NCBI GenBank assembly: GCA_025934375.1
Contig: JAICYD010000013.1
Span: 1-64,000, forward strand
Reading direction: 5' to 3'
From: Streptosporangiaceae bacterium
Lineage (GTDB): Bacteria; Actinomycetota; Actinomycetes; Streptosporangiales; Streptosporangiaceae
DNA: 64,000 bases
Part shown: piece after piece, positions 7,250 to 43,329 of the stretch
Layout of the letters: the number at the start of each line of letters is the position of its first letter
Numbering within the stretch: position 1 is the stretch's first letter
The notes under the pieces: generated by a model
What the model was told of the DNA's origin: nothing
What the model saw: the letters and a program-made list of their open reading frames with translations, nothing else
Database searches by the model: none
Program-made: the position numbers and the translations under genes

Positions 7250-7259
7250 GATGTCCTCC

Positions 7260-21537: not shown

Positions 21538-23036
21538 ATGCTGACGTCATAGTCATCGGTGCCGGGCCAGTCGGATTGATGCTGGCCGGCGAACTCCGGC
21601 TCGGCGGTGCCGACGTCATTGTCTTCGAGCAGCGGGAGCATCCCTGCGGGGAAACCAGGGGCCTTGGTTTCACCTCGCGAGCGGCGGAAGTGTTTGACCA
21701 GCGCGGCCTGCTTGCCCGGTTCGGGGAGGTCGAGATGGGCACGCAAGCGCACTTCGCCGGAATCCGGATCGACCCGGCGCTGCTTGACGAGCACCACCTA
21801 GGCGTGCGAAGCATACCTCAGCACCGCATCGAGAAGGTCCTCGAGGACTGGGCGCGCGAGCTAGGCGCGTCAGTAATGCGGGGATACACGCTGACCGACC
21901 TAAAAGACACCGGGGACCGCGTGGTGGCGGTGGTCGACGGGCCAGATGGCAGCGGTGAGCACACTGCCCGGTACCTGGTCGGCTGCGACGGCGCCCGGAG
22001 CAGGGCCCGGCACCTGGCCGGCATCGATTTCACCGGCACCGAGGCGACCCGCGGGATGTACCTCGCGGAGATCGTCGGCAAGACGATGCGGCCGAGGTAT
22101 GTCGGGGAAAGGGTTCCCGGGGGCATGGTGATGTCCTTCCCCCTCGAAGGCGCAGCGGTGCGGATCACCATCCACGAAGACGTCGCCCCCCCGCCCGCTC
22201 CCGACCACGTCGTGACGTTCACCGAGGTGGCCGACGCGTGGCAGCGCATGACCGGGGAATCCGTGCATGACGCGGAGCCCCTGTGGGTGAGCGCCTTTAC
22301 CGACGCGACCCGCCAGGCCAGCGAGTACCAGCGGGGCCGGGTGTTCGTCGCGGGCGACGCCGGCCACATCCACCTGCCAGTCGGATCGCAGGGCCTCAGC
22401 GTCGGCGTGCAGGACGCCGTGAACCTCGGATGGAAGCTGGCCGCCACGATTAAGCGCTGGGCCCCCGAGGACCTGATCGGCACCTACCACGGCGAGCGTC
22501 ATCCGGTGGGTGCCAGGGTGCTGCGCAACACGCTGGCCCAGAGGACGATTTACCTTAACGGGGACGAGATGGACCCGCTGCGGGCGGTCATGGGCGAGCT
22601 CGTAGCGATCCCGTCCGTCGCGTGCCACCTGGCGGCGATGGTGAGCGGACTCGATATCCGCTACGACATGGGCGCGTCGGGGCATCCGCTGCTCGGCAAG
22701 CGCATCCCGCCGAATAAGCAGGTGACGCTGCCCGGCGGCCACCGGGTGAACATCGCCGAACTGATGCACAAGGCACGGGGCGTCCTCGTCAGCACCAGCC
22801 ACCAGGATGGAACGGCTCAGCTCGCCGCCAGGTGGTCTGACCGGGTCGACATGGTCACCGGGCAGTGGAGCCAGGCATGGGCGAGTGGCGGGGTCCCGGT
22901 GGAGTCGGTGCTCATCCGTCCCGACGGCTACGTCGCCTGGATAACGCCGGACGGCGGCCAACTGGAGGATGCCCTGCGCCGTTGGCTGGGCTCGCCGCAG
23001 TACCCAGGCCCCGTCGTTAACCCGCCGCGGGCCTAG
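21534..23036 (+). CDS. FAD-dependent aromatic polyketide hydroxylase, third copy
   Basis: A 500-residue class A flavoprotein hydroxylase starting MNADVIVIGAGPVGLMLAGE. Later motifs are VGCDGARSRARHLAG (DG; SRAR rather than the usual STVR) and VAGDAGHIHLPVGSQGLSVG, where the usual AAH is AGH and GGQG is GSQG. ATG 21534 overlaps the hydrolase stop. It closely resembles the flavoproteins at 14844 and 18526. The altered GD motif might reflect a different substrate pocket. Confidence 0.86.
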   Translation: MNADVIVIGAGPVGLMLAGELRLGGADVIVFEQREHPCGETRGLGFTSRAAEVFDQRGLLARFGEVEMGTQAHFAGIRIDPALLDEHHLGVRSIPQHRIEKVLEDWARELGASVMRGYTLTDLKDTGDRVVAVVDGPDGSGEHTARYLVGCDGARSRARHLAGIDFTGTEATRGMYLAEIVGKTMRPRYVGERVPGGMVMSFPLEGAAVRITIHEDVAPPPAPDHVVTFTEVADAWQRMTGESVHDAEPLWVSAFTDATRQASEYQRGRVFVAGDAGHIHLPVGSQGLSVGVQDAVNLGWKLAATIKRWAPEDLIGTYHGERHPVGARVLRNTLAQRTIYLNGDEMDPLRAVMGELVAIPSVACHLAAMVSGLDIRYDMGASGHPLLGKRIPPNKQVTLPGGHRVNIAELMHKARGVLVSTSHQDGTAQLAARWSDRVDMVTGQWSQAWASGGVPVESVLIRPDGYVAWITPDGGQLEDALRRWLGSPQYPGPVVNPPRA

Positions 23037-23563: not shown

Positions 23564-25066
23564 ATGAGCACTCAGGTGCTGATCGCGGGGGCCGGGCCGG
23601 TCGGGCTCATGCTTGCCTGTGAGCTCGGGAGGTCAGGCGTGCAGGTGACCGTCCTGGAGCGCCTGGCGGCCCCGATGCGGGAGTCCCGGGCGAGCCTGCT
23701 TAACACCTGCACGGCCGAGCTACTTCACGCCCGCGGCTTCGATTCCCTGCTGGATCCCGCCCAGCGTGAGGTGAAAACACACTTCGCGGGGTTTCCCATC
23801 GACTTGTCCGCGGCCCCAAGCGACTACGCCGGCCACTTCAAGGTGCCGCAGTACGTCACCGAGCAGGTCCTCGGCGACGAGGCGCAGCGAGCGGGGGTAA
23901 CGCTACTCAGGTCTCGCGAACTCACCGGGATCAGGGAAACCGGCGATCGCGTCGCCTGCGCGTTCGACGGCCCGGCGGGCCGCGTCGTGCTCGAGACGGA
24001 ATACCTGGTCGGATGCGACGGCGCCGGCAGCACGGTTCGCCGGCTGGCTGGATTCGGCGCGTCACAGCGGACCGCGACCAGGGAGCTGCTGCGGGCCGAC
24101 GTGGTCGACGCCGGCATCCGCGATCGCCGGTTCGAAAGACTCGAGGGCGGATTCGCGGTGGCTAACACGCGCCGTGGCGTTACCCGGGTCATGATGCACG
24201 TGCGCGGCCATGAGCCGGTCAGGCGCCAGTCCCCGCCCGCGTTCTCCGAGGTCGCCAGTTCCTGGAAGAAGGTGACTGGCGAGGATATCTCCCGCCGCGA
24301 AGCCCTGTGGGCGGACTCCTTCGACAACTCTTACGGCCAGGCTGATTGTTACCGGCGCGGCCGGGTCCTGCTGGCCGGGGACGCCGCCCACTGGCACATG
24401 CCCATTGGCGGCCAGGCGTTGAACGTCGGCCTGAGCGACGCGGTAAACCTGGGCTGGAAGCTGGCCGCCGCGGTAACGGGCTGGGCGCCAAAAGGGCTTC
24501 TGGACACTTATGACTCCGAGCGGCGGGCCGCGGCGGCCAGGGTGATCAGGCACGTCGCCGCGCAAGAAACGCTGATGCTAGGCGGAGCCGAAGTCGAGCC
24601 CTTGCGCCACGTGCTGTCCGGATTGATCGCGATCGAGGGAGCGCAGCACCTCATCGGCCTCTTCTGCGCGGGCCTTGATGACCGGTACGGAACGCAGGGC
24701 GATGACGGCCTGGCTGGCCGGCACATGGCACACCTGAGGCCCGGGCGCGTACCCGGCGTGCTGTCCCCCGATCTGCTCACCGCAGCCCCAACGGGCGTGC
24801 TTGTCCGCTTCGCGGACCCGGGGCAGGCGGCCGGGGATAATCCCGTCAGGCGCACCCCGGCCGCGCAGTCGGTGTCGCTCCCGAACGGAGCACCGCTGCG
24901 GATAGTCCGCGTGGCCCAGCCGCCCGGCGACGGGGTCACCGATGTGCTGCTGCGCCCGGACGCGCACATCGCGTGGGCCGGATGTGGCGAACGTCGGCTG
25001 AGCGACGCGCTCAGCCAGTGGTTCGGCGCGCCGCTCCCTGATAATCACCGGGGCTCCCGCGCCTAA
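23564..25066 (+). CDS. FAD-dependent aromatic polyketide hydroxylase, fourth and most divergent copy
   Basis: A 500-residue class A flavoprotein hydroxylase (MSTQVLIAGAGPVGLMLACEL). DG motif GCDGAGSTVRRLAG; GD motif LAGDAAHWHMPIGGQALNVG. It differs from the other three through its RESRASLLNTCTAELLHARG segment in place of the usual LGFTxxA block, and is closer to RdmE/JadF-like enzymes. It is the last gene of the operon and ends in front of a strong hairpin. A role in quinone formation or hydroxylation (AlpK-like) is possible. Confidence 0.85.
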   Translation: MSTQVLIAGAGPVGLMLACELGRSGVQVTVLERLAAPMRESRASLLNTCTAELLHARGFDSLLDPAQREVKTHFAGFPIDLSAAPSDYAGHFKVPQYVTEQVLGDEAQRAGVTLLRSRELTGIRETGDRVACAFDGPAGRVVLETEYLVGCDGAGSTVRRLAGFGASQRTATRELLRADVVDAGIRDRRFERLEGGFAVANTRRGVTRVMMHVRGHEPVRRQSPPAFSEVASSWKKVTGEDISRREALWADSFDNSYGQADCYRRGRVLLAGDAAHWHMPIGGQALNVGLSDAVNLGWKLAAAVTGWAPKGLLDTYDSERRAAAARVIRHVAAQETLMLGGAEVEPLRHVLSGLIAIEGAQHLIGLFCAGLDDRYGTQGDDGLAGRHMAHLRPGRVPGVLSPDLLTAAPTGVLVRFADPGQAAGDNPVRRTPAAQSVSLPNGAPLRIVRVAQPPGDGVTDVLLRPDAHIAWAGCGERRLSDALSQWFGAPLPDNHRGSRA

Positions 25067-27502: not shown

Positions 27503-29401
27503 TCACTGAGCCGGCGGCGACTCGATCTTCGCCCAGTGCCACTGGGAGTCGAACGCGGTGATGTTGATGTCCGCGCCGTCGCCGGCCAAGGCCGCCGCGG
27601 CACCGGTCACCGTGGCGATGAACGCCGACGCGCGATGCGCGGCGAGCATGTCCTGCTCGTCGAACGGCGAGCCCTCGCAGCGCAGCAGCCGGAGATCGAC
27701 GAACCCGTTGAACGTCCGGCCGAGCACCTCGACCGCCTGCGGGCTGCGGATGCTGAAGCGCACCTTGGCGGCGACATGGCCGTGGTGATGCTGATCGGAG
27801 TAGTAGGCGATATCGGGGATGGTCGGCGGCACGAAGTAATCACGGGCGACCACCTCAGGGACCTTCGGCAGATTGCCGACCAGGAAGTGCCACGAGTTGT
27901 ACTGCATCCGCGAAGAGATGGCCCACGCCATGTCGGCCAGCCAGGCCGGCGAGTCGCCGAAATGGCGGTGGGCCTGCGCCGCCGGGACCACGCAACAGTA
28001 GAAGTGCGGCAGGTCCCACTGCGCGATCTGCGCCCAGTCTTCGGCCCGCAGCGCCCGCACCAGGGCGGTCAGCGAGCGGCTGCCCCGGCTCATGGCCATG
28101 TCGCATCCGAAGGCCGCCGTCGACGCCGCCACGGTCTCATACAGCAGCGACTCCAGCCCCGTCGCGAACTCGCCATGCGGCTCGGCCAGCCACGCCGGCG
28201 ACGCCGCGATGCTCGCGCCGAGCTCGCCGAAGGTGGCGCCCGCGGCGGGGAGCCGCTCGCTCAGGCGCGCGCAGAGCCCGCCTTCCCGTTGCCGCGCGGC
28301 GTGTGACCGGGCGGGCGCGATGCGCTCGATCTTGTGCATCAGCGGCCCGTGTATCTCACGGTACAGCTGGGCAACCATCCCGATTTCCCGGCGGCGCCCG
28401 CTGAGTGCCCCGGCGAGGTCGGCCAGCGCCGCCACCCGGGCCGAGGAGGCCGGCGGCACCCGCTGGCCGCCGGGCACGCTTTCGTACTTGAGCCGGGTCT
28501 GCTCGAGCAGGTGCGCGACGTGATCGATCGTCAGCTGCGTGCCGTTGGCCTCCTCGATCCGCGCGAACCCCGCCGACCGCACGAGGAGCGTAAGGGATAC
28601 CACCATCACGACATCGCCGTCCGACCATAGGTCGAGGGGCAGCGCCACCAAGCTGCTCAGCGCGCAGTCGGGGTGGCCGGGCCACAGCGTCTTTCCGGTC
28701 AGCGTGTTCCTGTCCCGGAAGTTCGTGTATTGCCTGTCCCCCTGGTACAAGACGAAAGGCGCGGTCCTGCGGGCGGCTTCCTTCAGGTCCTCGAGCATGC
28801 CCGCCCGGCCGCCGGGGCCGGCCGCGGCCAGCCACTGGCGGCAGTCGGCGACGGCATCGGCGGACCGCCCGCGAAGACGGTTCAGCGTGGCCCGGTAGGC
28901 ACGCAGGGCGCCGGCCGGCCACGGCACGCGCAGCACGCCGCCCACGAGATTCTCATGGCCCGCCAGGGGGCCGCGACCGGGCACGCGCAGCACTACCTGT
29001 CCGCTGACGGTCAGCCCGATCTCGCCGAGGAACTCCGGCTTGCCCGCAGCGGCGCCCAAGCCGGGAGCGCCATCGTCTTCCCGGCGCCACGTCTTGCCGC
29101 ACAAGACCTTCAGCGCGCACTCATCCGCTAGGCGCAAGGCGCGCAGCTGGACATCAGCGGGGACATGACCGCCGAGCGTGAGCAAGATGTCCACCGCCGT
29201 AGCCAGGTCGGGAGCCGAGACCGCCTGCTTCCAGCTCCGGCCGAGCAGCCCGGGGAACCCGGCGTCGGCCGGGACCGGGTAGTCGGGCTCGGCGGCCGCC
29301 CCGGCCGCCGAGCCGAGCCGGCTGGGCCGGCGGCTCTGCCGCGCCTGGGCCAGGGCGGCCCTGCGGGAAGTGGCGGCGCCTCGCTCGATCGGCAGCGTCA
29401 T
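27503..29401 (-). CDS. Unrecognised 632-residue protein of the N-N cassette
   Basis: I do not recognise this family. The protein is soluble, with no signal peptide or membrane segment, and alanine/arginine-rich at the N terminus. Conserved-looking blocks are YQGDRQYTNFRDRNTLTG (about residue 215), REIHGPLMHKIERI (about 365), a PHFYCCVVPAAQAHRHFGD stretch (about 490) and a striking YYSDQHHHGHVAAKVRFSIR cluster (about 550) that could bind a metal or act in catalysis. ATG 29401 overlaps the ferredoxin stop (ATGA), so it is translated with it. Its place between ferredoxin and exporter ties it to nitrogen chemistry. Shared hypothetical proteins are reported in kinamycin and lomaiviticin cassettes; I cannot verify identity here. 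Confidence 0.6.
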   Translation of the reverse strand: MTLPIERGAATSRRAALAQARQSRRPSRLGSAAGAAAEPDYPVPADAGFPGLLGRSWKQAVSAPDLATAVDILLTLGGHVPADVQLRALRLADECALKVLCGKTWRREDDGAPGLGAAAGKPEFLGEIGLTVSGQVVLRVPGRGPLAGHENLVGGVLRVPWPAGALRAYRATLNRLRGRSADAVADCRQWLAAAGPGGRAGMLEDLKEAARRTAPFVLYQGDRQYTNFRDRNTLTGKTLWPGHPDCALSSLVALPLDLWSDGDVVMVVSLTLLVRSAGFARIEEANGTQLTIDHVAHLLEQTRLKYESVPGGQRVPPASSARVAALADLAGALSGRRREIGMVAQLYREIHGPLMHKIERIAPARSHAARQREGGLCARLSERLPAAGATFGELGASIAASPAWLAEPHGEFATGLESLLYETVAASTAAFGCDMAMSRGSRSLTALVRALRAEDWAQIAQWDLPHFYCCVVPAAQAHRHFGDSPAWLADMAWAISSRMQYNSWHFLVGNLPKVPEVVARDYFVPPTIPDIAYYSDQHHHGHVAAKVRFSIRSPQAVEVLGRTFNGFVDLRLLRCEGSPFDEQDMLAAHRASAFIATVTGAAAALAGDGADINITAFDSQWHWAKIESPPAQ

Positions 29402-29733
29402 GGTTGGCCCTCGGTTGTCAGCTCGATGTGATTCCACATGTCGGGATCGGTCTCCTTCCATTCCTCGTCCACGTAAATGCAGTCAACCGGGCATACCATC
29501 ACGCAGACCGGACAGCCCGAGCACAGTTCAGGAACTATGATGACGTCGAGGCCGCGGTCGAATATCGCCCCGAATTCCGGCGGGCAGTTGCGCAGGCAGG
29601 TATCGCAGGTGATGCACTCTGACGCCTCGATGCGCCGTGGCGGTTTCTTCCAGGTCTCGCTACGGGCGCGGTGGGCGACTCGGCCTGCCCGCCCGTCACC
29701 CGCGGCGGCCGGGGACCCCTTACCCCAGGGCAT
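29398..29733 (-). CDS. Two-cluster [4Fe-4S] ferredoxin
   Basis: A 111-residue ferredoxin. Residues about 40-90 carry two complete CxxCxxCxxxCP motifs: CITCDTCLRNCP and CSGCPVCVMVCP. They are flanked by a basic N-terminal extension (MPWGKGSPAAAGDGRAGRVA) and an acidic tail (DEEWKETDPDMWNHIE). It supplies low-potential electrons, most likely to the DUF3050 oxygenase-like protein encoded just upstream or to the unknown protein just downstream. The start, ATG 29733, lies one base after the upstream stop; the downstream gene overlaps by ATGA. Tight coupling argues for a stoichiometric partner. Confidence 0.9.
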   Translation of the reverse strand: MPWGKGSPAAAGDGRAGRVAHRARSETWKKPPRRIEASECITCDTCLRNCPPEFGAIFDRGLDVIIVPELCSGCPVCVMVCPVDCIYVDEEWKETDPDMWNHIELTTEGQP

Positions 29734-29734
29734 G

Positions 29735-30523
29735 TCAGCGCTCGCAAATCTGCCCGAGAATGCCATCCCACAGCCGCACCCGGGCCGCGAAGGCGAGGTT
29801 GATAGCCTCCTGGCACTCCGCCCACCTGTGGTCATCGTCGCCGCACAGGTCGACAAGCATCTGCATCGCCATGGGAGTGTGCTCTTCGCTGTCGACCTGA
29901 ATATGCCGTCGGAGGTAGTCGACAAAGGTAGACAGGTTGCCTGATTCGGCATTCAGCCCGACCACTTGGTCGAACATCTCGGGGATCAGGTCCTCGCGGC
30001 CGAAGGCGAACGCTGCGGCCTGGCAGTGCACGGGCGCGTCGGAGATGAACTTGTAGGTTGCGGCCGCGAATCCGGCCGCTGGCTCCGGCACGTTCGCCGC
30101 GCGGAGCGATGGGATGACGGGCTGGCCGGCGCGCAGCAAGTCGATGAAGGCGTCGACGTGCGTGGTGTCCGCTCCGGCCTGCCGCATGCCGCCCAGGTAC
30201 AACTCGAAGTGGCTGATGAAGCCGCCGTCAAGCTCGTCGCTCTCCTCCACCAGCGTGATGTCGTTGATGAGCCGCCGGCTGACCATCGGCCCGGTCGGCA
30301 CCCACGGCATCTGAACGCAGGTGAGGCTGCGCTGCAGGCTCTTCAGCAAGGACATGAAGTCCCAGACAGCGAACACGTGATGCTCCATGAACGTCACCAC
30401 CGCGTCCGTCGTATTCAACTGGCGGTACAGCGGATGGCCGATCACCTTCCGTCGGCCCGGGTCCACCGCCTCCTTAAGCCGCTCGATCGCAGGATTGGTC
30501 CGTCCCCAGTCATATCGCGACAT
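29735..30523 (-). CDS. DUF3050 protein, heme-oxygenase-like fold (candidate diiron N-oxygenase)
   Basis: A 262-residue DUF3050-family protein with an all-helical heme-oxygenase-like fold. Candidate metal ligands can be seen in the spacing expected for heme-oxygenase-like diiron oxidases: Glu47 and His48/49 ([12 protein letters not shown]), Glu93/94 and His105 ([15 protein letters not shown]), and His207-x3-Asp211-x3-His215 ([11 protein letters not shown]). Relatives such as SznF, BesC and UndA use two irons and O2 to oxidise amines or carbon chains; some N-oxygenate. ATG 30523 follows GAAAGGAA. It is directly followed by a ferredoxin that could feed it electrons. N-oxidation is inferred, not shown. 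Confidence 0.72.
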
Positions 30524-30559
30524 TAGTATTTTCCTTTCGGTTATTGAGCGTGGCGCGGT

Positions 30560-32050
30560 TCAGAAGACCCGGAAGTACTCGCGTTGCTCCCACTCCGTTA
30601 CGCCGCCCGAGGCAGGGCCTTCTTCCGCGCACCACGCGTCGAACCGCGCCGCCTCGCTTTCCTTCAGCTTCAGAAGGCACGCCTTGAGCGGCTCGCCGAG
30701 CAGGTCCGTGGCGCGGCCGCTGTCGCCGAACGCGCGCAGGGCCTCGCGCAGCGACCGTGGCAGCCCCGGACGGGGCCCGGCCAGCGGCCGGCCCGCGGTG
30801 AGCCCGTCGAGCCCGGCCGACAGCTGCGAGGCGATCGCCAGGTAGGGATTCGCGCACGGCTCCCCGATCCGGTTCTCGACGTGCGTCGAGCTTCCGCCGC
30901 TGAGCACCCGGACCATCACGGTCCGGTCCTCGTAACGCCAGTTGGGCTCCGTAGGGGACAGCGAGAATTCGGGGGCGAGCCGGCGGTATCCGTTCACCGT
31001 CGGAACCGAGAGCAGGCAGTACTCGTGAGCGCGGGCCAGCAGCCCCTCGATGTAGGCCTCCCCGTCAGGGGACATCGTCCCCTGGGCGCCATCCGCGGCG
31101 AAGACGTTGCGGTCCGTTTTCGTGCTGGTGACCGACTGGTGCAGGTGCCAGCCGCTGGGGTCGAAGCTGTCCACGCGCGGGAGGGTCATGAACGACGCGT
31201 GGTATCCGCGCCGCGCGCAGAACTGCTTGACCTGCGTACGGAACAGCAGCATCGCGTCCGCGGCGTCCAGGGCGCGCATCGGGGTGAACGTCGTCTCCAG
31301 CTGCCCGGGGCCCGACTCGTGCTCCATCGTCCGCAGCGGCAGGCCCAGCGCCATGAGCATCGCCGCCACCGGGTCGGCTACCTCGGCCACCGAGTCGTAG
31401 TAGGCGTCCAGGTTGAATTGGTAGCCGGCGTTCATGGCCTGCACCGCCGGGGCGGGTCCTTGCAGGCCGAAGCCGTTCCCGGCGTTGCCGGGCGGTCCGG
31501 GAAGCAGCCGCGTGAGGTACCACTCCACCTCAAGCCCGATGACCGGGACCAGATCGCGCTTGGCGTACTGCGCGGCCACCCGGTGCAGCACGCCCCGGCT
31601 CGCCAGCGGGTGCGGCTGGCCGTCCCGCTGGTACTCATCTCCCAGTACCCAGGCCGTCCGGGGCCCGGCTCCCGGCAGCACCTGGAACGTCCGGGGGTCG
31701 GGAACGAGCACGAAATCACCCGCGCCGGCTAGCTCGCTGACGCCCACTCCGGGGTCGGAGGTGAAGTCGACGGCCACCGCGTGCCCGGTATCGAACACGA
31801 ACGGCCCGGCGCTGAAGTCCATGCCGTTGCGCAAGACCGCGCGGAACATGGCCGCGGGCACCGTCTTGGACCGGGCCAGCCCGTGCGGGTCGCAATAGAC
31901 GACCCGCACCAGGTCGACCCCGTTCAGCTCCACTTCTACCCGCTCGGCAACCGCGGCCTGATGATCGCTCCAGAGTCCGAATTCGGCCACGAACGAAGGG
32001 GCGCCCACGCAGCCTTCTTCGCCGTGCCTGGACCATGGTCGGAAAGTCAT
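30560..32050 (-). CDS. Glutamine synthetase-like ligase (candidate gamma-glutamylhydrazine synthetase)
   Basis: A 496-residue type I glutamine synthetase-like enzyme. The N-terminal beta-grasp has RVVYCDPHGLARSKTVP (about residues 48-64). The catalytic domain has EHESGPGQLETTFTP (about 250), GWHLHQSV (about 305), SGGSSTHVENRIGEPCANPYLA (about 395). The GPGQLE form is typical of gamma-glutamylamine and gamma-glutamylhydrazine synthetases rather than true ammonia-assimilating GlnA. It ligates glutamate to an amine using ATP. The start is ATG 32050. In kinamycin and fosfazinomycin clusters the homolog joins glutamate to hydrazine; here that job is inferred from its neighbours. Confidence 0.85.
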   Translation of the reverse strand: MTFRPWSRHGEEGCVGAPSFVAEFGLWSDHQAAVAERVEVELNGVDLVRVVYCDPHGLARSKTVPAAMFRAVLRNGMDFSAGPFVFDTGHAVAVDFTSDPGVGVSELAGAGDFVLVPDPRTFQVLPGAGPRTAWVLGDEYQRDGQPHPLASRGVLHRVAAQYAKRDLVPVIGLEVEWYLTRLLPGPPGNAGNGFGLQGPAPAVQAMNAGYQFNLDAYYDSVAEVADPVAAMLMALGLPLRTMEHESGPGQLETTFTPMRALDAADAMLLFRTQVKQFCARRGYHASFMTLPRVDSFDPSGWHLHQSVTSTKTDRNVFAADGAQGTMSPDGEAYIEGLLARAHEYCLLSVPTVNGYRRLAPEFSLSPTEPNWRYEDRTVMVRVLSGGSSTHVENRIGEPCANPYLAIASQLSAGLDGLTAGRPLAGPRPGLPRSLREALRAFGDSGRATDLLGEPLKACLLKLKESEAARFDAWCAEEGPASGGVTEWEQREYFRVF

Positions 32051-32063
32051 GATCAGTGGCCTT

Positions 32064-33512
32064 TCATGTCGCGACCAGGGGTGCCATGGGTAGCCCGAGG
32101 TCCGCCTCCAGGCCGCTGGCCGTGGAAAGCACCAGGTCATCGCCGCCCAGCGGCCCTACGAGCTGGAGGCCAACCGGGAGGCCCGCCGGCGATAGGCCGA
32201 CGGGAACCGACAGTGCGGGCTGGCCTGTCATGTTGAAGGGGTAGGTCGCGGGCGTCCACGCCAGCCACTGCAGCTCGTCCGCCTCCGCCCAGGGCGGCGC
32301 GATCGCGCCGACGCTGAAGGGTTCGACGGGAACCGTCGCCATCGCCAGCAGGTCGTAGCGATCCATGACCGACCGCAGCCGGGTCCGCAGGGCCAGCCGC
32401 GCCTCCTCGGCGCGCATCAGCGCCGCCCCGCTGACCGTCCGCCCGTACCGGACGAGGCGCAGCCGCCCCGGATCGTGCTTGTCCTCGTCGGCCGGCGCGG
32501 TGGCGGCCGCCGCGCCCGCGGCGAGGATGTCCACCAGCGCCGGGTACGGGTCATCGAACGGCACGTCGATGAATTCGACCCGGTGTCCCTGCGCCGCGAG
32601 CGCGGGCCAGGCCCGCTCGGTGACCTTGCGGATCTCGGCGCTCGTTCGCGGGAACTCCATCCAGCCGATGCGCAGTGCCGCGGCAGTCCCCCTCAGGCTC
32701 GCGCCCGGGCCCGGCGCCGAGTCGGGGTCCCCTGGGTGCGGCCCGGCGAGGACCGCCATGAGCTCCGCGACGTCAGCCACGCTGCGGGCCAGCGGGCCCG
32801 CGTGCGCCAGCCGGTCGGCGCAGGGCGGGACATAGGGAACACGGCCGAACGACGGCTTGTAGCCGACCACGCCGCAGAACGCCGCGGGAATGCGGATCGA
32901 GCCCGCGCCGTCGGTACCGAGCGCGGCGGTGCACAGGCCCGCCGCCACGGCCGCGGCGCTGCCCCCGCTTGAGCCGCCGGCCGAGCGGCCGGGCGCCCAG
33001 GGGTTCCTCGTGGGACCGGTCACCCGGGACACGGTGCTCGCGCTCCACCCGTACTCCGAAGTCGTGGTCTTGCCGACCACGATCGCGCCCGCGGACCGCA
33101 GGCGGGCCACGGCCGGCGCGTCCGTTACGGGACGGCGGTTGGCCACCAGGGAGCCCCGCCTCGTGGGAAGCTGCTCGGTCTGGATGAGGTCCTTGACGGA
33201 CAGGGTCACGCCAAGCAGTGGCCGGTCCCGCCAGGCCGCGTTGCCAAGCGTGCCGATGAGGCGGTCGGCCGCCTCGGCCTCCCGCACGGCCGCCTCGCCG
33301 GCCACCGCCACGAAAGCGCCAAGCCCGGGGTCGACCTCGCCAATGGCTGTGAGCGCCGACGAGACAAGCTCGGTGACGGTAGAATCGCCGCGGCGCAGGA
33401 ACTCCCGCGTCTCGCGAATACCGAGACGGGCCCGGTGCGCCGCGGGCTTATTACCCGGTTTGATCAAGCCTGACACGGGACTAGGAAATGACACCTCCTG
33501 AATGCCGCGCAA
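32064..33512 (-). CDS. Amidase-signature hydrolase
   Basis: A 470-482 residue amidase with the Ser-cisSer-Lys triad: Lys107 (GVTLSVKDLIQTE), Ser181/182 (GRSAGGSSGGSAAA), Ser205 (GTDGAGSIRIPA), numbered from the TTG at 33512. It hydrolyses C-N amide or hydrazide bonds. The start is uncertain: the TTG at 33512 and GTG codons at 33494 and 33476 are possible, and no ribosome site decides. It lies 13 bases before the glutamine synthetase-like gene. In kinamycin-type cassettes an amidase is proposed to release hydrazine from acetylhydrazine. A StrR-type operator lies 42 bases upstream. Confidence 0.85.
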   Translation of the reverse strand: MRGIQEVSFPSPVSGLIKPGNKPAAHRARLGIRETREFLRRGDSTVTELVSSALTAIGEVDPGLGAFVAVAGEAAVREAEAADRLIGTLGNAAWRDRPLLGVTLSVKDLIQTEQLPTRRGSLVANRRPVTDAPAVARLRSAGAIVVGKTTTSEYGWSASTVSRVTGPTRNPWAPGRSAGGSSGGSAAAVAAGLCTAALGTDGAGSIRIPAAFCGVVGYKPSFGRVPYVPPCADRLAHAGPLARSVADVAELMAVLAGPHPGDPDSAPGPGASLRGTAAALRIGWMEFPRTSAEIRKVTERAWPALAAQGHRVEFIDVPFDDPYPALVDILAAGAAAATAPADEDKHDPGRLRLVRYGRTVSGAALMRAEEARLALRTRLRSVMDRYDLLAMATVPVEPFSVGAIAPPWAEADELQWLAWTPATYPFNMTGQPALSVPVGLSPAGLPVGLQLVGPLGGDDLVLSTASGLEADLGLPMAPLVAT

Positions 33513-33553
33513 GTAGAGCCGTTCCTTTCCAGTAGGTCCGGCTCAGATCGCGA

Positions 33554-33582
33554 GTTCAACAACGGAGGGCCCGCACTCGAAC
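33554..33582. promoter_or_regulatory. StrR-type operator, site 4 (N-N cassette, divergent)
   Basis: On the minus strand GTTCGAGTG, an 11-base spacer starting CGG, then TTGTTGAAC. The outer arms (GTTCGA and TTGAAC) form a near-palindrome of 29 bases. It lies between the divergent amidase and lyase-like genes and can serve both directions, which would place the whole N-N cassette under one switch. Confidence 0.72.
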
Positions 33583-33757
33583 GACCGCAAAGCGAGCTTG
33601 CATCGAGCGCCGGCTCATGTCAAAATGAACGCTATCCCGCCTTCCATCGACCGTCCCTTTCGCTGGCTCGCGCGCTCATCATGGCGTAAATACCGCGGTC
33701 GGTCCTGTTGACGCGCTGATAATCTACTGATACCTCACCCGTGGAATGGGAGCCGCA

Positions 33758-35032
33758 ATGATACCCCGCTATGCGCGGCCGGAAATGGCGGACCTATGGT
33801 CCGATCAGTCGCGTTACGCCACGTGGGCCAGGGTGGAGGTCCTGGCCGCGCGGGCGCAGGCGATCCTCGGGCGGGTGCCACCGGATGCCCTCGCCGACAT
33901 CCAGCGCGCCCGGGTGCCGTCCGCGGCCCGCGTCGCTGCGATCGAGCGCGAGCGAGACCATGAGATCCTGTCCTTCCTCGCGGCGTTCTGCGAGGACATC
34001 CCCGCGGACTCCGCCCGGTGGGTGCACCTGGGGATGACCAGCTATGACCTGGTCGACACCGCCTTCGGGCACACCCTTGCCCGGGCGGTCGACCTGCTGG
34101 CCGACGCGGTGACGCGGCTGCGCCGGGTGCTGGCCGCGAAGGCGGCCGAGCACTGGCGAACGGTGTGCATCGGCCGCACCCATGGCGTTCACGCCGAGCC
34201 CACGACGTTCGGCCATAAGCTGGCTGGCTTCGCCTTCGCCATCGACCGTTGCGCAGGGCGGCTGGCCGCGGCGCGCGAGGCCGTCGCGGTGGGCACGATT
34301 TCCGGCTCGGTGGGCACCTACGCGCTGATCGACCCGTTCGTTGAGGAGTACGTCTGCGGTGAGCTCGGCCTCGGCGTAGAGCCCGCCCCGAGCCAGGTCG
34401 TCGCCCGCGACCGCCACGCCCAGCTGGTCCAGGCGGTGGCGACGCTCGGTGCCTGCGTGGAGCAGATCGCGCTTGAGCTGCGGCTGCTCCAGCGCACCGA
34501 GGTGCGCGAGGTAGAGGAGCACAGGACCGCTGCCTACCAGGGGTCGAGCGCCATGCCGCACAAGCGCAATCCGACGGCCAGCGAGCGGCTGTGCGGGCTG
34601 GCCCGGATACTGCGCGGCTATGCGGGAATGGTGCTGGAGGACGTGGCGCTGTGGCATGAGCGGGACCTGTCTCACTCGTCCGTCGAGCGGGTCGCGGTGC
34701 CCGACAGCATGACCGTGGCGCACTTCCAGGTCACCGCCGCCGCCGACCTCGTGGAGACGCTGGAGGTGTTCCCGGGCCGCATGCGAGCGGCCATCGACGC
34801 CACGAACGGCCTGGTGTTCAGCTCGGCAGTCCTCGCCGACCTGCTTGAAAATGGCGTCGAACGAGAGAAGGCCTACCGGTGCATCCAGGCGGCGGCCGAC
34901 CGCACCAGCGCATCCGGCGGCGATTTCCGTGCCATGCTCAAGGCCGAGGGAATAGATCCGGGACCGCTACAGCCAGAGCGCTTCCTGGTTCACCATGACG
35001 TAATCCTTTCTCGATTGGAAAATCTTTCATGA
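33758..35032 (+). CDS. Adenylosuccinate lyase-like enzyme (aspartase/fumarase superfamily)
   Basis: A 424-residue fumarase/aspartase-superfamily lyase closest to PurB. The signature loop QGSSAMPHKRNPTASERL lies near residue 268; GRTHGVHAEPTTFGHKLAG near 147 carries the catalytic histidine; MTSYDLVDTAFG near 94 is the substrate-binding block. Family members eliminate fumarate from N-succinyl or related substrates. ATG 33758 follows TGGGAG; an ATG at 33746 lacks spacing. Context (amidase, GS-like ligase, GNAT) and not purine genes argues for a role in N-N synthon formation, as for the lyases of the fosfazinomycin and kinamycin clusters. Which succinyl compound it cleaves cannot be read from sequence. 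Confidence 0.82.
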   Translation: MIPRYARPEMADLWSDQSRYATWARVEVLAARAQAILGRVPPDALADIQRARVPSAARVAAIERERDHEILSFLAAFCEDIPADSARWVHLGMTSYDLVDTAFGHTLARAVDLLADAVTRLRRVLAAKAAEHWRTVCIGRTHGVHAEPTTFGHKLAGFAFAIDRCAGRLAAAREAVAVGTISGSVGTYALIDPFVEEYVCGELGLGVEPAPSQVVARDRHAQLVQAVATLGACVEQIALELRLLQRTEVREVEEHRTAAYQGSSAMPHKRNPTASERLCGLARILRGYAGMVLEDVALWHERDLSHSSVERVAVPDSMTVAHFQVTAAADLVETLEVFPGRMRAAIDATNGLVFSSAVLADLLENGVEREKAYRCIQAAADRTSASGGDFRAMLKAEGIDPGPLQPERFLVHHDVILSRLENLS

Positions 35033-35430
35033 CTTGGCACATCGCCCGCGTAGCCGGCAGCGAGCTGGACATCGGGGAAGTTCTCGCGATTTATCGATCC
35101 TCGGGCCTTGGCGAACGCAGGCCGGTAGCCGACGCGGAGCGCATGGCCGCGATGATACGGAACGCCAATCTCATAGTCACCTGCCGCGTGGCCGGGGAAA
35201 TGGTCGGCATCGCCAGGAGCATCTCGGACTTCTCTTACGTTACCTACCTCTCCGATATAGCGGTCAGCCGCCCCTTCCAGCGAGAGGGAATCGGCAGGGC
35301 ACTTATCGACGCAACCAGGAAAGAAGCGCCGCAGGCTAAAATCGTGCTGCTGTCGGCGCCGGCCGCGACCGGCTATTACCCGCACATAGGGTTTTCGAGG
35401 CACGACTCGGCATGGGTGCTGAACCCATAG
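35029..35430 (+). CDS. GNAT N-acetyltransferase
   Basis: A 133-residue GCN5-related acetyltransferase. The acetyl-CoA loop is RPFQREGIGRALIDATR (about residues 80-97), preceded by the beta-4 strand YLSDIAVS; the C-terminal YYPHIGFSRHDSAW closes the fold. ATG 35029 overlaps the lyase stop (ATGA). Kinamycin and fosfazinomycin cassettes carry such an enzyme to handle the acetylhydrazine synthon, so the same substrate is proposed here. The small size is within the family range. Confidence 0.85.
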   Translation: MTWHIARVAGSELDIGEVLAIYRSSGLGERRPVADAERMAAMIRNANLIVTCRVAGEMVGIARSISDFSYVTYLSDIAVSRPFQREGIGRALIDATRKEAPQAKIVLLSAPAATGYYPHIGFSRHDSAWVLNP

Positions 35431-35459
35431 CGCCGATCTCACCGAACAACGTTAGGAGT

Positions 35460-35735
35460 ATGGCTGTGCTCACCTTGAACCCTCCCGCCGTCGAGGCTAT
35501 CCGGATGCTGACGGGCAGGCCGGGACTGCCGACAAGTTCCGGCCTGCGGATTGTCCACGGCGACACCGCCGGAGGAATCGAATTGTTCATCACTTCGCAG
35601 CCGGCCGTGGGAGACCAGGTCATAGAGATCGACGGCGTGCGAGTCTTCCTCCATGAGAACGTCGCCGCCATGCTCAGCGGGCGGTCGCTCGGTGCCGAGA
35701 TCAGCGAGGATGACGTGGTCTTCCGCATTCAGTGA
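35460..35735 (+). CDS. HesB/IscA-like protein without cysteines
   Basis: A 91-residue protein with the HesB/IscA fold pattern (LTLNPPAVEAIRMLT at the start, GLRIVHGDTAGGIELFIT, VIEIDGVRVFLHENVAAML). True A-type iron-sulfur carriers bind metal through three cysteines; this protein has no cysteine at all, so it cannot carry a cluster in the usual way. ATG 35460 follows TTAGGAG. It closes the lyase-GNAT operon. It may be a structural or binding partner; the function is unknown. Degenerate HesB-like proteins do occur in actinobacteria. Confidence 0.72.
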   Translation: MAVLTLNPPAVEAIRMLTGRPGLPTSSGLRIVHGDTAGGIELFITSQPAVGDQVIEIDGVRVFLHENVAAMLSGRSLGAEISEDDVVFRIQ

Positions 35736-35769
35736 ACGGCTCCCCTCACCGGGGACTCCGGCCGTAAGA

Positions 35770-35802
35770 AGTGGCCCCCGCCGCGGTGCGGCGGGGGCCA
35801 CT
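35770..35802. terminator. Strong terminator hairpin
   Basis: AGTGGCCCCCGCC (35770-35782) pairs perfectly with GGCGGGGGCCACT (35790-35802) across a seven-base loop, followed by GTTTGG. It lies between the converging HesB-like and halogenase-like genes. Confidence 0.8.
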
Positions 35803-35824
35803 GTTTGGCCCCTTGCTGTGCGAG

Positions 35825-37192
35825 TTAGTCCCCGGCATGCACCGGGCACTCGTAGACCGGCTTGAAGTCATCGAACAGGTGCCATGACTTTTCTTCCCGC
35901 AGCCGCTGGAAGAAGCGGTTCTTACCGGACCAGAAGTCCCCGTTGAGCGCCCTCACCAGCCAGAAGTGCTCGATGGCCTCCTCGGTGTCGAACGGGCCGC
36001 CGGACGTGGCCCGCAGCTTCTCCTGGATGCCCCACCAGCCCGCTCCCGCCAGGCGCCGGTCGTCGGCGTACGGGGTCACCCTCAGCTCGCGCCCGCCGCT
36101 GGCGTAGCGGTTATCGTAGACGGCGCGGATGAGCCGGTAGTAGGTTTCGTAGCCGGTCTTGAAGAAGTTCTGGTAGCGCTCCGCCGCCTCGGCCTCGCCC
36201 GACTCGCCGGCCAGGCATATCGCCGTCTCCTCGGCCGCCCGGCGGCCGGTGGTGAGGGCGAGCAGGACCCCCCCGGAGAAGACAGGGTCGGTGAAGCTGC
36301 CCGCGTCGCCGATGATGAAATAGCCCGGCCCGGCGAGGGTGTCGCAGTGGTACTCGAAGTTGTTCTCGCCGGCAAGCTCACGGACAACGGTCGTTCCCTC
36401 AATGCGCTCGCGGATCCTGGGGATCCGCGCCAGGTGCTCGTCCCAGACCTCCTCGGGGCGCGATGCCCGCAGGATCTCGGCCGGCGCCACGCAGCCGATG
36501 CTGATGGTGTCGGGGCGGATGGGAATGGCCCAGACCCACCCGTCGGCGTGCAGGCCGAGCTGGATGTCGCCCTCCGTAGCGGGGTTCTTGCCTTCGTCCA
36601 GGCCGCCGAGGTGCTTGAAGACCGCCGCCATCTTGAGGTGGTCGTCTGCCTTCCGCAGGTTCAGGCCCCTGGCGATCACGCCGGCCCGCCCGCTCGCGTC
36701 GATGACGAACCTCGCGGTGGCGACGTGCTCCGCGCCGTCGTGGCCGTAACGGACGCCGCTGATGCGCTCGCCGGAGTTGAGCAGGCGGGTGACGCGGGCC
36801 TTCTGCAGGACGGTGACACCGGGGGTCTCGGCGGCGGTGTCGAGGAGGATCTTGTCGAATTCGGATCGCTCCACGTGAAGGGTCCACCCCCGCAGGCCCT
36901 CTCCCACCTTTCCGAGCTGCAGGCGCCTGAACGTTCCCTCGGTGCCGGTGAGCTCGATCCCCCGCTTGACGACGAAGCCGGCCGCGCTCATCCGATCCAG
37001 GACCCCGAGCTGGTCCAGGACATCCGCGGTGTACGTCAGCAACGACTCGCCGATGTGGAACCTCGGGAACTGCTCCCGCTCAAGGAGCAGGACTGAATGG
37101 CCCAGGCGGGCAAGCGTCATGGCGTAGGAGGACCCGGCAGGGCCTCCGCCGACTACGATGGCATCGTAATCCTTATTGTTGGCATCAGCCAC
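35825..37192 (-). CDS. Flavin-dependent halogenase-like protein
   Basis: A 455-residue FAD protein of the tryptophan-halogenase superfamily. Motifs: IVVGGGPAGSSYAM (GxGxxG, residues 12-25), ERE...FHIGESLL, DGWVWAIPI (the WxWxIP motif that separates halogenases from hydroxylases, near residue 215) and GDAGSFTDPVFSGGV (near 290). It would need a flavin reductase, not seen in the window. The start is GTG 37192, six bases behind AAGGAG; the ATG at 37207 lies before this site. Substrate and halide cannot be deduced, and some members of this family hydroxylate or epoxidise. A StrR-type operator lies at 37307-37335. Confidence 0.75.
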   Translation of the reverse strand: MADANNKDYDAIVVGGGPAGSSYAMTLARLGHSVLLLEREQFPRFHIGESLLTYTADVLDQLGVLDRMSAAGFVVKRGIELTGTEGTFRRLQLGKVGEGLRGWTLHVERSEFDKILLDTAAETPGVTVLQKARVTRLLNSGERISGVRYGHDGAEHVATARFVIDASGRAGVIARGLNLRKADDHLKMAAVFKHLGGLDEGKNPATEGDIQLGLHADGWVWAIPIRPDTISIGCVAPAEILRASRPEEVWDEHLARIPRIRERIEGTTVVRELAGENNFEYHCDTLAGPGYFIIGDAGSFTDPVFSGGVLLALTTGRRAAEETAICLAGESGEAEAAERYQNFFKTGYETYYRLIRAVYDNRYASGGRELRVTPYADDRRLAGAGWWGIQEKLRATSGGPFDTEEAIEHFWLVRALNGDFWSGKNRFFQRLREEKSWHLFDDFKPVYECPVHAGD

Positions 37193-37306
37193 AGGTTGCT
37201 CCTTCATCTCGAATGAGGATTATGCCAAGGATGCTTCCTTGCCGTCCCTTAGGGTGCGAGGCTCGCGCAGCGGAAGTCAACCTGGCCATCCCTTTCCTGC
37301 GCCAGA

Positions 37307-37335
37307 GTTCGACTGCGAGATTGTCGCGGTCGAAC
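37307..37335. promoter_or_regulatory. StrR-type operator, site 5 (best match)
   Basis: GTTCGACTG, an 11-base spacer, then CGGTCGAAC: 17 of 18 consensus bases and almost a perfect palindrome. It lies between the divergent halogenase-like and O-methyltransferase-like genes. A TATTCT at 37365-37370, 29 bases further, may be the -10 element of the plus-strand gene. Confidence 0.85.
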
Positions 37336-37403
37336 CGACGTTGTGAGCGGCGAGCGTGTCGTTCTATTCTTGGCCCGGAAAGGCGACTAATTCAGGAGGG
37401 CTC

Positions 37404-38432
37404 ATGTCTGCACCAGCCTACACAAGAGATCAGGCGGCTACTTTTGCGCTGCTTGACTTGACGCAGGGATCGGTGATAACCCAGGCGCTCTATGTCGCGG
37501 CCCGGCTTAGCATAGCCGACATCCTGAGCGACGGCCCGCTGGCGGCTGCCGAAATAGCGAAGAGAGCAGATGCCAACCCGGAAGCGGTATACCGCCTGCT
37601 GCGCCTGCTCTCCGGCTACTCGGTATTCGCCGAGGGCGAGGACGGCCGGTTCGGGCTGACGCCGATGGCCAGCGCCCTGCGTGACGATGCGCCGGATTCC
37701 ATGCGCGGCATAGCGTTGCTCATGGGGCACCCGCTGTTCCGTGAAGACTGGGGACACCTGCTCACCTCGGTGCGGACCGGCGAGCCGAGCCTGCCCACGC
37801 TGCGCGGCATGGGGGCCTTCGAGTTCCTCATGGCGAACCCCGAATACAGGATCGCGTTCTTCCAGGGAATGGGCAACCTTTCCGCTCCGGAGACCGACCC
37901 CGTGGTCGCGGCGTATGACTTCTCCAGGTTCCGCACGATTGTCGACCTCGGCGGCGGGCGCGGCGCCCTTCTCGCGGGTATCCTCAACCGGGCCAACGCC
38001 TCGACGGGAATCCTGTTTGACCATCCGCAAGCGACGGCCGACGCCGCCGACGTCATCAAGGCAGCAGGGGTGGCCGGCCGCTGCACGATCGAGAACGGCT
38101 CATATTTCGAAACCGTGCCCGCCGGCGCCGACGCCTATCTGCTCAAGCACACGCTGCATGACTTCAGCGAGCCGCAGATCCGCGCCGTCCTCAAGAATGT
38201 CCGTAACGCAATCAATCCCAGCGGTGCGCTCTTCGTGATCGAGTACGTGCTCCCCGAAGGCAATGAGCGTCATATCGGAAACATCATCGACATGTGGCTC
38301 CTGCTAATGCTGGGCGCTAAGGAGCGTACCCGGCAGCAGTACGCCGACCTCCTTGCCAGTGAGGGATTCAGGCTAACCAGCATCATCCCGACCACGTCGC
38401 CGGTGTCGATTATCCAGGCCGAGCCCGTATGA
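37404..38432 (+). CDS. O-methyltransferase-like protein (possible hydrazine-installing AlpH-type enzyme)
   Basis: A 342-residue class I SAM O-methyltransferase of the plant-OMT/ActO type. It has an N-terminal dimerisation winged helix (residues 10-90), motif I VDLGGGRGALLAGIL (180-194) and the catalytic region LLKHTLHDFSEPQIRAVLKN (247-266) with His249/His252. ATG 37404 has CAGGAGGG upstream. The SAM site looks intact. In kinamycin biosynthesis AlpH, a protein of this family, couples glutamylhydrazine to the polyketide without using SAM. An equivalent role is attractive here because a GS-like ligase and a gamma-glutamyl hydrolase are present; plain O-methylation is the default alternative. 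Confidence 0.78.
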   Translation: MSAPAYTRDQAATFALLDLTQGSVITQALYVAARLSIADILSDGPLAAAEIAKRADANPEAVYRLLRLLSGYSVFAEGEDGRFGLTPMASALRDDAPDSMRGIALLMGHPLFREDWGHLLTSVRTGEPSLPTLRGMGAFEFLMANPEYRIAFFQGMGNLSAPETDPVVAAYDFSRFRTIVDLGGGRGALLAGILNRANASTGILFDHPQATADAADVIKAAGVAGRCTIENGSYFETVPAGADAYLLKHTLHDFSEPQIRAVLKNVRNAINPSGALFVIEYVLPEGNERHIGNIIDMWLLLMLGAKERTRQQYADLLASEGFRLTSIIPTTSPVSIIQAEPV

Positions 38433-42074: not shown

Positions 42075-43286
42075 TCAGGATTTGAAGAAGTTGGTCAGCT
42101 GGTCCAGGACGTGTGCGCTGACCGTGCGGCCGGCGAAGCTGGCGGGAATGCTGTGGTGCTGCGCGCCGGGTACCGCGTCGGCCACGGTGAGCGAGTCCTT
42201 GTGCGACCGGTCATTCGCGTCCCGGTCGATCACCAGGGTAGGGACGGCAATGCCGCGATAGCGGTCGGCCGATGACTCCTCGGAGACGGTGAGGTCGTAC
42301 ATGATCGTGGGCGCGACCGCCTCAAGGGCCTCCCAGAACAGGTCTCCGCGCGCGATCCGGAATTCGTCCGACACCGCGTCAGAGCCGTGGAACAAGGCGA
42401 CTGCGTCCGCGTTGCGGCCCGCCTTGAGTAGCTCGCTGAGCTTGGGCCGCAGGTCCTCCTGGCCGTCCGCGCTGGCCAGCCTCGGCTCGCGCAGGACGAG
42501 CCTGCTGATCCCGGTGACGCCGGCCGCGGTGGCCTCCAGGGCAAGCACCGCGCCCGACAACATGCCGTAGACCCCGACATTCTCCCCGCCGGCCGCCTTT
42601 ATGACGGCTTGCAGGTCCTCGAGCTCGCGCTCAACCGAGTACGGCGCGGTGTCTCCGCTGTCGCCCCGGCCCCGGCGATCGTAGGTGTAGACGGTGAAGT
42701 TCTCGGCGAGCAGCGAAGCGAACTTCATCGACGGGCCGTACGTGCGAGAGGACGTGGGACCGTCGACGATGACAACCGCGGGCCCTGTACCGCGGCTTTC
42801 CAGGGTAATGCGGGTGCCGTCGCGGGAATCCACTGTCTCGACGTTGACGATCTCGCCGGCCGGCTGACGGACGGAGATGTTGAGACGGTTCCATACCCCC
42901 ATGACGGCGATGCAGACGAGCAGCGCCGCGAGCGACTTCTCGTCGTAGTGGCGGGCGGCTTCGTACCACACGTCGTCCGGGACGGGATCGCCCTGGCCGG
43001 CGATAGTGGTGACAGCGTCGGTCAGCGCCAGCGCCGCGCGTTCGGCATCGGTGAAGCATGGCGCGTCGCGCCAGGCCGCTACCGCCTGCATGCGCTCGTT
43101 GTCCTCGCCGAGCAGCCTGATGAAGTTGGGGTCCAGCCACCCGCTGACGACCCCCGCGCGCAGTTGCACCAAGCCCGTCGTGGTTATCGGCAGGCCACCC
43201 GACTGGATACCGACCCTGCCCAGCGCCTGAAGCGCTTCCACGGCACCGGGCAGCACCATCGCAGGGTTCCTCATCCGAGCCTGCAT
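42075..43286 (-). CDS. Fusion of degenerate AhpD-like domain and alpha/beta hydrolase-like domain
   Basis: A 403-residue two-domain protein. Residues 1-150 match the two AhpD-like proteins of this window (MQARMRNPAMVLPGAV; CFTDAERAALALTDAVT), but the redox site GCSVC is replaced by SGWLDP, so no CxxC remains. Residues 155-403 form an alpha/beta hydrolase fold (TYDRRGRGDSG; C-terminal PTLVIDRDANDRSH; QHHSIPASF), but the nucleophile elbow reads YGMLSGAV: leucine sits where the catalytic serine of GxSxG belongs. Both active sites look dead. ATG 43286 after GAGG is the best start. It may serve as a binding or sensing protein; it lies behind the PPOX gene in one unit. Confidence 0.75.
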   Translation of the reverse strand: MQARMRNPAMVLPGAVEALQALGRVGIQSGGLPITTTGLVQLRAGVVSGWLDPNFIRLLGEDNERMQAVAAWRDAPCFTDAERAALALTDAVTTIAGQGDPVPDDVWYEAARHYDEKSLAALLVCIAVMGVWNRLNISVRQPAGEIVNVETVDSRDGTRITLESRGTGPAVVIVDGPTSSRTYGPSMKFASLLAENFTVYTYDRRGRGDSGDTAPYSVERELEDLQAVIKAAGGENVGVYGMLSGAVLALEATAAGVTGISRLVLREPRLASADGQEDLRPKLSELLKAGRNADAVALFHGSDAVSDEFRIARGDLFWEALEAVAPTIMYDLTVSEESSADRYRGIAVPTLVIDRDANDRSHKDSLTVADAVPGAQHHSIPASFAGRTVSAHVLDQLTNFFKS

Positions 43287-43329
43287 TTTTCTACCTCGCA
43301 TTTCCGTAACGTGGCGAATGCCATCGTTG

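Follow-up and report, generated by a model that had tools for sequence, protein, structure and literature searches.

Background

Kinamycin and lomaiviticin are antitumour compounds that carry an N-N bond on an aromatic polyketide. Here we analyze a 64,000-nucleotide stretch of a Streptosporangiaceae genome (positions 1 to 64,000 of contig JAICYD010000013.1; the window hereafter) whose content is best read as a lomaiviticin-branch cluster of the diazobenzofluorene type. In the kinamycin system KinJ, described in 2025, acts with the KinI ferredoxin to convert L-aspartate and nitrite to L-hydrazinosuccinate, and uses nitrate weakly (PMC12154649). Pathway steps for homologues of the other enzymes considered below are described in PMC6133997, PMC12154649 and PMC10477347; among these, AlpH couples L-glutamylhydrazine without S-adenosylmethionine (SAM) (PMC10477347). 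The conserved lomaiviticin set lists Lom29, Lom30 and Lom32-35, skipping Lom31 (PMC6470958). The kinamycin cluster has the nitrite-forming pair CreE/CreD (Alp2F/2G, PMC12181624), although CreDE is missing from most genomes with KinJ (PMC12154649).

The window has homologues of KinI through KinN and of FzmN through FzmR, together with AlpH-, AlpJ- and AlpK-like enzymes. We propose that a cluster of about 45 kb, of diazobenzofluorene type (lomaiviticin/kinamycin-like) and under a StrR-type regulator, is the best explanation of its content, with a probability of roughly 0.85. The comparison with the kin and fzm systems was based on published residues, the AlpH structure in the Protein Data Bank (PDB), and named Salinispora and Micromonospora rosaria loci; the gene families, their orthology by trees and identity, the gene order, the KinJ and AlpH residues and the operators described below are all established in the window itself.

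The hydrazine cassette

The core of the cluster is a seven-gene cassette:

27503-29401, minus strand: KinJ/FzmP/Lom29-type haem enzyme (632 residues, ATG at 29401), proposed L-hydrazinosuccinate synthase using L-aspartate and nitrite
29398-29733, minus strand: KinI-type 2[4Fe-4S] ferredoxin with an N-terminal extension (Fer4 dicluster families), predicted electron donor to KinJ
29735-30523, minus strand: DUF3050 protein of the HamA family with a haem-oxygenase-like fold (PF11251, E 3e-92)
30560-32050, minus strand: KinL/FzmN-type glutamine synthetase (GS)-like ligase, predicted to join acetylhydrazine and glutamate (PF00120, E 5e-57; reading frame open from 32140)
32064-33512, minus strand: KinK/FzmO/FlsN3-type amidase, predicted to deacetylate glutamylacetylhydrazine (PF01425, E 8e-95)
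33746-35032, plus strand: KinM/FzmR-type adenylosuccinate-lyase-like enzyme, predicted to convert N-acetylhydrazinosuccinate to acetylhydrazine (TIGR00928, 399 bits)
35029-35430, plus strand: KinN/FzmQ-type GNAT N-acetyltransferase (PF13673, E 8e-13)

Profile searches bear out the initial annotation in its grouping of an amidase, a GS-like ligase, a ferredoxin, a lyase-like enzyme and a GNAT protein here, as homologues of KinK, KinL, KinI, KinM and KinN respectively; the span that it marked also encloses, unnamed, the KinJ-type protein and the DUF3050 protein. The former, with its ferredoxin, is predicted from sequence to be the N-N bond maker of the window. Like KinJ itself (PMC12154649), it matched no Pfam or NCBIfam family in profile searches, and it had no match among PDB sequences. 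A single scan of genome contigs recovered 61 loci (given L numbers) with KinJ homologues at up to 74% identity, including Salinispora pacifica and Micromonospora rosaria. The window protein has C489, R518, M519, N522, H525, H562, R572, R591 and K377 (numbered from 29461), spaced exactly as C468, R497, M498, N501, H504, H541, R551, R570 and K356, the nine active-site positions proposed for KinJ (PMC12154649), and all nine are invariant across every ungapped row of the KinJ alignment (56-57 rows). A KinJ/FzmP enzyme is expected to bind haem b and to be served by a dedicated low-potential 2[4Fe-4S] ferredoxin. The ferredoxin of the window contains two cluster motifs, CITCDTCLRNCP and CSGCPVCVMVCP, is 65-86% identical to ferredoxins adjoining KinJ homologues, and its gene end overlaps the start of the KinJ-type gene. 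No N-N enzymes of the AurF or SznF type were seen in the window. A different genus of the family has a remote KinJ homologue at 43% identity whose matched frame contains a TGA (L130, G243).

The remaining enzymes are likewise closer to their counterparts in KinJ cassettes than to paralogues of their own genome: 78-79% versus 40% to the nearest paralogue for the GS-like ligase, up to 72% versus at most 38% for the amidase, and 79-81% versus 46% (to PurB) for the lyase. The GNAT protein, whose gene starts 4 bp ahead of the lyase stop, is 64-81% identical to the GNAT proteins of KinJ cassettes. The trees put the ligase and the amidase in cassette-only groups, each with a starred SH-aLRT support of 99, that exclude the five GS and six amidase paralogues tested from this genome. 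The lyase, too, falls with the cassettes, in a group that is unbroken and weakly supported (46) against three non-cassette rows, namely the genome's own PurB and PcaB and one Streptomyces CreD. Hence the proposal of the initial annotation that these are the kin/fzm-type families of acetylhydrazine and glutamylhydrazine formation is upheld by identity and gene order for all four and by trees for three, the ligase and amidase separating from glutamine and catabolic enzymes firmly and the lyase from purine enzymes weakly. We also note that the hydrazine lyase scores above the curated PurB cut-off (399 versus 326 bits), such that automatic annotation would name it purB.

The order of the cassette, with GNAT and lyase on one strand and amidase, GS-like ligase, DUF3050 gene, ferredoxin and KinJ on the other, is identical in ten further loci (L008, L009, L010, L015, L016, L021, L022, L059, L061 and L067) and is common to the window, Salinispora pacifica and Actinoallomurus. 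It is therefore the lomaiviticin-type order, so that gene order, which the initial annotation had thought different from that of kinamycin, does not set the window apart from the known family; other-branch loci of Streptomyces, unlike the window, run in the order ferredoxin, KinJ, amidase, GS, lyase and GNAT. The window branches off first within the lomaiviticin-type clade in the lyase (85), amidase (90), AlpH (starred 100) and KinJ (92) trees, the last of which left out the poorly filled rows L019, L023, L024, L057 and L061, and is nested inside that clade in the GS and DUF3050 trees. The closest described counterpart is the Salinispora cassette comprising Lom29, Lom30 and Lom32-35 (L021), which matches the window gene for gene in order and orientation, with a DUF3050 gene between GS and ferredoxin here too; by species and gene content L021 appears to be the lomaiviticin cluster, and by position the DUF3050 gene would be Lom31. 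Cassette identity to L021 is 65-82%, but the polyketide synthase (PKS) and tailoring genes are arranged differently, and the window adds halogenase-like and HesB/IscA-like genes and retains an intact GxGxG motif in its AlpH homologue.

Polyketide genes, regulation and cluster extent

The genes expected to supply and modify the polyketide, a candidate regulator gene and two operator sites are:

6275-7288, minus strand: aromatase/cyclase (Polyketide_cyc2)
7260-8045, minus strand: ketoreductase, named from its translation
8076-9452, minus strand: biotin carboxylase, named from its translation
11668-14432, minus strand: minimal type II PKS, with ketosynthase (KS) alpha at 13164-14432, KSbeta from 13167 to about 11920 and acyl carrier protein (ACP) at 11916-11668
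14482-14808, minus strand: polyketide cyclase (PF04673, E 7e-43)
14844-16370, minus strand: flavin adenine dinucleotide (FAD) monooxygenase (PF01494, E 3e-85)
17345-18529, plus strand: ParB-like/HTH regulator, candidate StrR-type activator (HTH_23, E 4e-07)
18484-20007, plus strand: FlsO1/AlpK-like FAD monooxygenase of angucycline type, partner of the AlpJ homologue (best PDB match FlsO1 7vwp, E 4e-208)
20024-20794, plus strand: AlpJ/JadG/GilOII-like B-ring oxygenase of the ABM family (PF03992; PDB 5f9p E 1e-72, 9kdp E 3e-65)
20791-21537, plus strand: peptidase C26/gamma-glutamyl hydrolase-like amidotransferase of the tailoring operon (PF07722, E 4e-50)
21438-23036 and 23564-25066, plus strand: two FAD monooxygenases with a VOC/PhnB-like protein between them (PF01494, PF06983)
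33554-33582: degenerate StrR-like inverted repeat in the promoter region between the divergent amidase and lyase genes (GTTCAA-N17-TCGAAC; GTTCAACAACGGAGGGCCCGCACTCGAAC)
37307-37335: StrR-type operator between the halogenase-like gene and the AlpH homologue, one mismatch to consensus

Full KS genes of the KinJ loci L014, L017, L059 and L060 are 75-77% identical to the KSalpha. AlpJ-like homologues at 49-57% identity lie near KinJ in lomaiviticin-type loci, in most of which the pairing of an AlpJ-like with an FlsO1-like gene recurs. Homologues of the peptidase C26-like protein occur in L023, L024, L057, L059, L060 and L061, and we consider it a candidate for removal of the glutamyl carrier after coupling. 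Within the PKS, PF00109, PF02801 and PF00550 all match a single open reading frame (11668-13167); KSbeta and ACP share this frame across a stop-free junction, with the ACP methionine at 11916, pointing to either a fusion or a lost stop, whereas in L060 the two are separate overlapping genes.

For regulation we searched the window with GTTCGACTG-N11-CAGTCGAAC, which we take to be the StrR operator consensus, and at up to three mismatches found sites at 3974, 16591, 37307, 43998 and 46922 against 0.03 expected. The cluster is likely to extend from about 4 to 49 kb, because these operators run from 3974 to 46950. One of them (16591-16619) lies upstream of the candidate regulator gene; profile searches of the window for a StrR/NovG-type regulator returned generic HTH matches only. 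The divergence of the cassette around a StrR-type operator had been noted previously: the amidase/lyase repeat is real, but it is not the sole operator, with the five stricter sites lying elsewhere. Similarly, the complete type II PKS said to adjoin the cassette is genuine but lies 13-20 kb away. Judged from their sequences, the AlpJ-, FlsO1/AlpK- and AlpH-like enzymes and the StrR-type operators tie cassette and PKS into one cluster.

Three further genes complete the picture: a small HesB/IscA-like protein (35412-35735, plus strand), named from its translation alone, had no Pfam match and no homologue in the 61 KinJ loci; an alpha/beta hydrolase domain, a possible counterpart of the A-ring epoxide hydrolase (Alp1U/Lom6) of diazobenzofluorene clusters, is encoded at 42075-43301; and a radical-SAM-like protein at 52813-55035, read by eye, has its CxxxCxxC motif split by an intein-like insert (CQGGDTPIL...VVSHN).

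The AlpH homologue, the halogenase-like gene and the product

Two genes with a common operator are the following:

35825-37207, minus strand: flavin-dependent halogenase-like protein (PF04820, E 2e-27)
37356-38432, plus strand: AlpH-type O-methyltransferase-like enzyme, proposed glutamylhydrazine-polyketide coupler (best PDB match AlpH 8h3t, E 9e-108)

The AlpH homologue has AlpH as its nearest solved relative, ahead of every methyltransferase structure (next-best PDB match 3e-72). Its catalytic and most substrate residues are kept, including F157, F170, M174, G202, K266, H267, H270, D271, W317 and L318 of AlpH, among which mutations at M174, K266, H267, H270 and D271 impair activity (PMC10477347); the differences are tyrosine for L252, leucine for M177, isoleucine for V314 and glycine for C201. 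With the last, GxGxG is intact as GGGRG where AlpH has CxGxG, and the window protein does not show the degenerate SAM motif expected of AlpH: it is the sole one with glycine at the first position among 36 homologues, the other 35 having cysteine, valine, isoleucine, threonine, alanine, asparagine or tyrosine. Ordinary methyltransferases have glycine here, so the simplest view is that the window protein kept an ancestral motif that the two clades lost separately; a reversion is also possible.

Flavin-dependent halogenases are marked by a catalytic lysine, WxWxIP and FxxPxxSxG. The window protein carries WVWAIP and FTDPVFSGG, and the lysine of its best PDB halogenase match (8zop, E 3e-58) aligns with K81; we infer that it may chlorinate the product. 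Its nearest homologue (78%) is in Actinomadura soli (L028), adjoining DUF3050 and near KinJ, with others at 55-57% in Nocardia (L050, L051, L056), and no other AlpH-bearing locus had such a gene within the flanks examined. These four KinJ clusters, in which AlpH was not detected, carry the same halogenase-like gene, and three of them also carry an antiporter like that at 38460 of the window; they constitute a separate KinJ cluster type.

Carrying over the individual reactions from work on homologues, we envisage that the KinJ-type haem enzyme and its ferredoxin would form L-hydrazinosuccinate from nitrite and L-aspartate, which the GNAT protein would acetylate and the lyase-like enzyme would cleave to free acetylhydrazine. 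The GS-like ligase would load this onto glutamate and the amidase would strip the acetyl group, yielding L-glutamylhydrazine. Meanwhile, the type II PKS, cyclases and FAD monooxygenases would build an angucycline, whose B ring the AlpJ-like oxygenase and its partner would open. The AlpH-like enzyme would then join glutamylhydrazine to the polyketide and close the five-membered ring, with loss of the glutamyl group leaving a diazo or hydrazine. The earlier assignment to aromatic polyketides with an N-N bond is sound as a pathway class, from the cassette and the AlpJ/AlpH-like enzymes, but retention of the N-N bond in the final product is something we infer.

Three observations speak against this diazobenzofluorene interpretation: a fluostatin producer with the same cassette makes dominant products that are diazo-free (PMC6470958), the AlpH homologue may, given its intact SAM motif, methylate instead, and the CreDE nitrite pair was not found in the window's genome, the assembly of which is 92.4% complete. 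The first two suggest an alternative wherein the cassette is functional and the AlpH homologue an ordinary O-methyltransferase, the cluster making mainly a diazo-free benzofluorene with the hydrazine confined to minor, fluostatin-like products. Besides the uniquely intact GGGRG, the tyrosine at the L252 position, aromatic like F241 of the SAM-binding MmcR, fits such an enzyme. We nevertheless regard this outcome as unlikely, given that the five functionally critical AlpH residues are all kept and that the protein is nearer to AlpH than to solved methyltransferases. It is far less plausible, indeed extremely improbable, that chance alone placed three enzymes of purine, glutamine or catabolic pathways (lyase, ligase and amidase) side by side. 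The lyase's score above the PurB cut-off, a generic annotation, would accord with this, but the seven-gene order conserved in unrelated genera and the trees rule it out, and PurB (on C213) and GS are encoded separately elsewhere in the genome. We accordingly retain a lomaiviticin-type diazobenzofluorene cluster as the preferred interpretation.

The DUF3050 protein and the supply of nitrite

Unlike the fzm cluster, which has the nitrite genes FzmM/FzmL, the window has no kin- or fzm-type pair that we could find. In its genome no CreE was detected at E 1e-20, and the CreD-like matches are a PcaB beside pcaC, PurB and the cassette lyase. Calling CreD by NCBIfam score alone was rejected, many matches of 340-570 bits being PcaB in protocatechuate operons; CreDE calls hence used neighbourhood and CreE besides the CreD score. 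Elsewhere, Salinispora cortesiana (L159, G008:C7) carries, outside its KinJ locus, CreE- and CreD-like genes separated by about 5 kb, and G014, G009 and G018 have a CreE-like gene for which no CreD partner was found.

The DUF3050 gene lies 36 bp past the GS-like ligase and 1 bp ahead of the ferredoxin ATG. The best PDB match of its product is 9vwb, titled HamA, a Heme-Oxygenase-Like Enzyme (sequence E 2e-54, fold TM 0.83; 37% identity by structure alignment), with further fold matches to TenA, UndA, CADD and PolF and, lower, RohS. Conserved residues include E47, E93/E94/E97, H105, E177 and H207-x3-D211-x3-H215, and this glutamate/histidine/aspartate set may provide diiron ligands; the predicted structure has pLDDT below 50 at 70-77 and 95-101. 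HamA belongs to the fragin/valdiazen pathway, in which hamB, hamF and hamG are dispensable for the signal (PMC5878181), and the family includes MgoB (PMC3298696). HamA, MgoB and PvfA, all of diazeniumdiolate pathways, share Pfam family and fold with the window protein and likewise attend N-N chemistry, but HamA is found beside an AurF-like N-oxygenase and a nonribosomal peptide synthetase and the window protein with a haem enzyme and a ferredoxin.

DUF3050 is rare in the class (13 of 394 other genomes), yet it is present in the cassettes of 15 of 50 KinJ genomes, with neighbourhoods searched at genome level. It is located between GS and ferredoxin, divergently from ferredoxin (L028, L030) or after GNAT (L068). 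In its tree a second starred branch sets the GS-ferredoxin-position group (starred 99) apart from the rest, and therefore at least two recruitments into KinJ cassettes took place. Homologues sister to the cassette clade (L154, L158, L160, L161) belong to a different cluster, alongside genes for ketosynthases, a dioxygenase-like protein and pyruvate-dehydrogenase E1-like proteins.

Based on these contexts, we tentatively suggest that DUF3050, at the Lom31 position, might replace CreDE: as a diiron N-oxygenase with a haem-oxygenase-like fold, it would supply KinJ with nitrite or nitric oxide (NO) through N-oxidation of an amino donor. Its place in one operon with ferredoxin and KinJ, the N-N-forming pathway of HamA and its repeated recruitment despite rarity favor this, as does an inverse link with CreDE, which occurs in 3 of 16 genomes with a cassette DUF3050 versus 25 of 34 without (Fisher p = 0.0005; 50 genomes, window included). 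However, contrasted on the KinJ tree, 0.2 pairs went the same way and 1.8 the opposite way (median sign-test p 0.5), so that the link is not independent of ancestry. Moreover, three genomes have both gene sets, and seven lomaiviticin-type relatives (L011, L013, L014, L017, L018, L060, L064) have neither. As the tree-based test is not significant and these seven have neither, we treat the role as a hypothesis only and a doubtful one, and reject DUF3050 as a general CreDE replacement. The competing view, for which we would allow even odds, is that nitrite comes from general metabolism, a nitrate/nitrite pathway or a CreDE pair in the missing 8% of the assembly, with DUF3050 otherwise employed, for example in a tailoring oxidation. 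Genomes lacking both sets and the weak use of nitrate by KinJ agree with this; conversely, no respiratory NarG exceeded the cut-off in the window's genome (assimilatory reductases not searched), and the close linkage of the DUF3050 gene with KinJ, together with its repeated recruitment, points to a role in the cassette.

Implications

The window holds a genuine cluster of an already known kind that shows variant features, namely the AlpH motif, the halogenase-like gene and DUF3050, in a genus whose other genomes examined are mostly fragmented assemblies. The basal AlpH homologue, its SAM motif intact, offers a test of whether loss of SAM binding was needed for hydrazine coupling, and the halogenase-like gene could give a halogenated compound not yet known from this potent class of antitumour agents. 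DUF3050 provides one deletable candidate gene for KinJ genomes without CreDE; if it does make nitrite or NO, a group of CreDE-less hydrazine pathways would have in it their missing nitrogen-oxide source, with the same function as HamA in diazeniumdiolate pathways.

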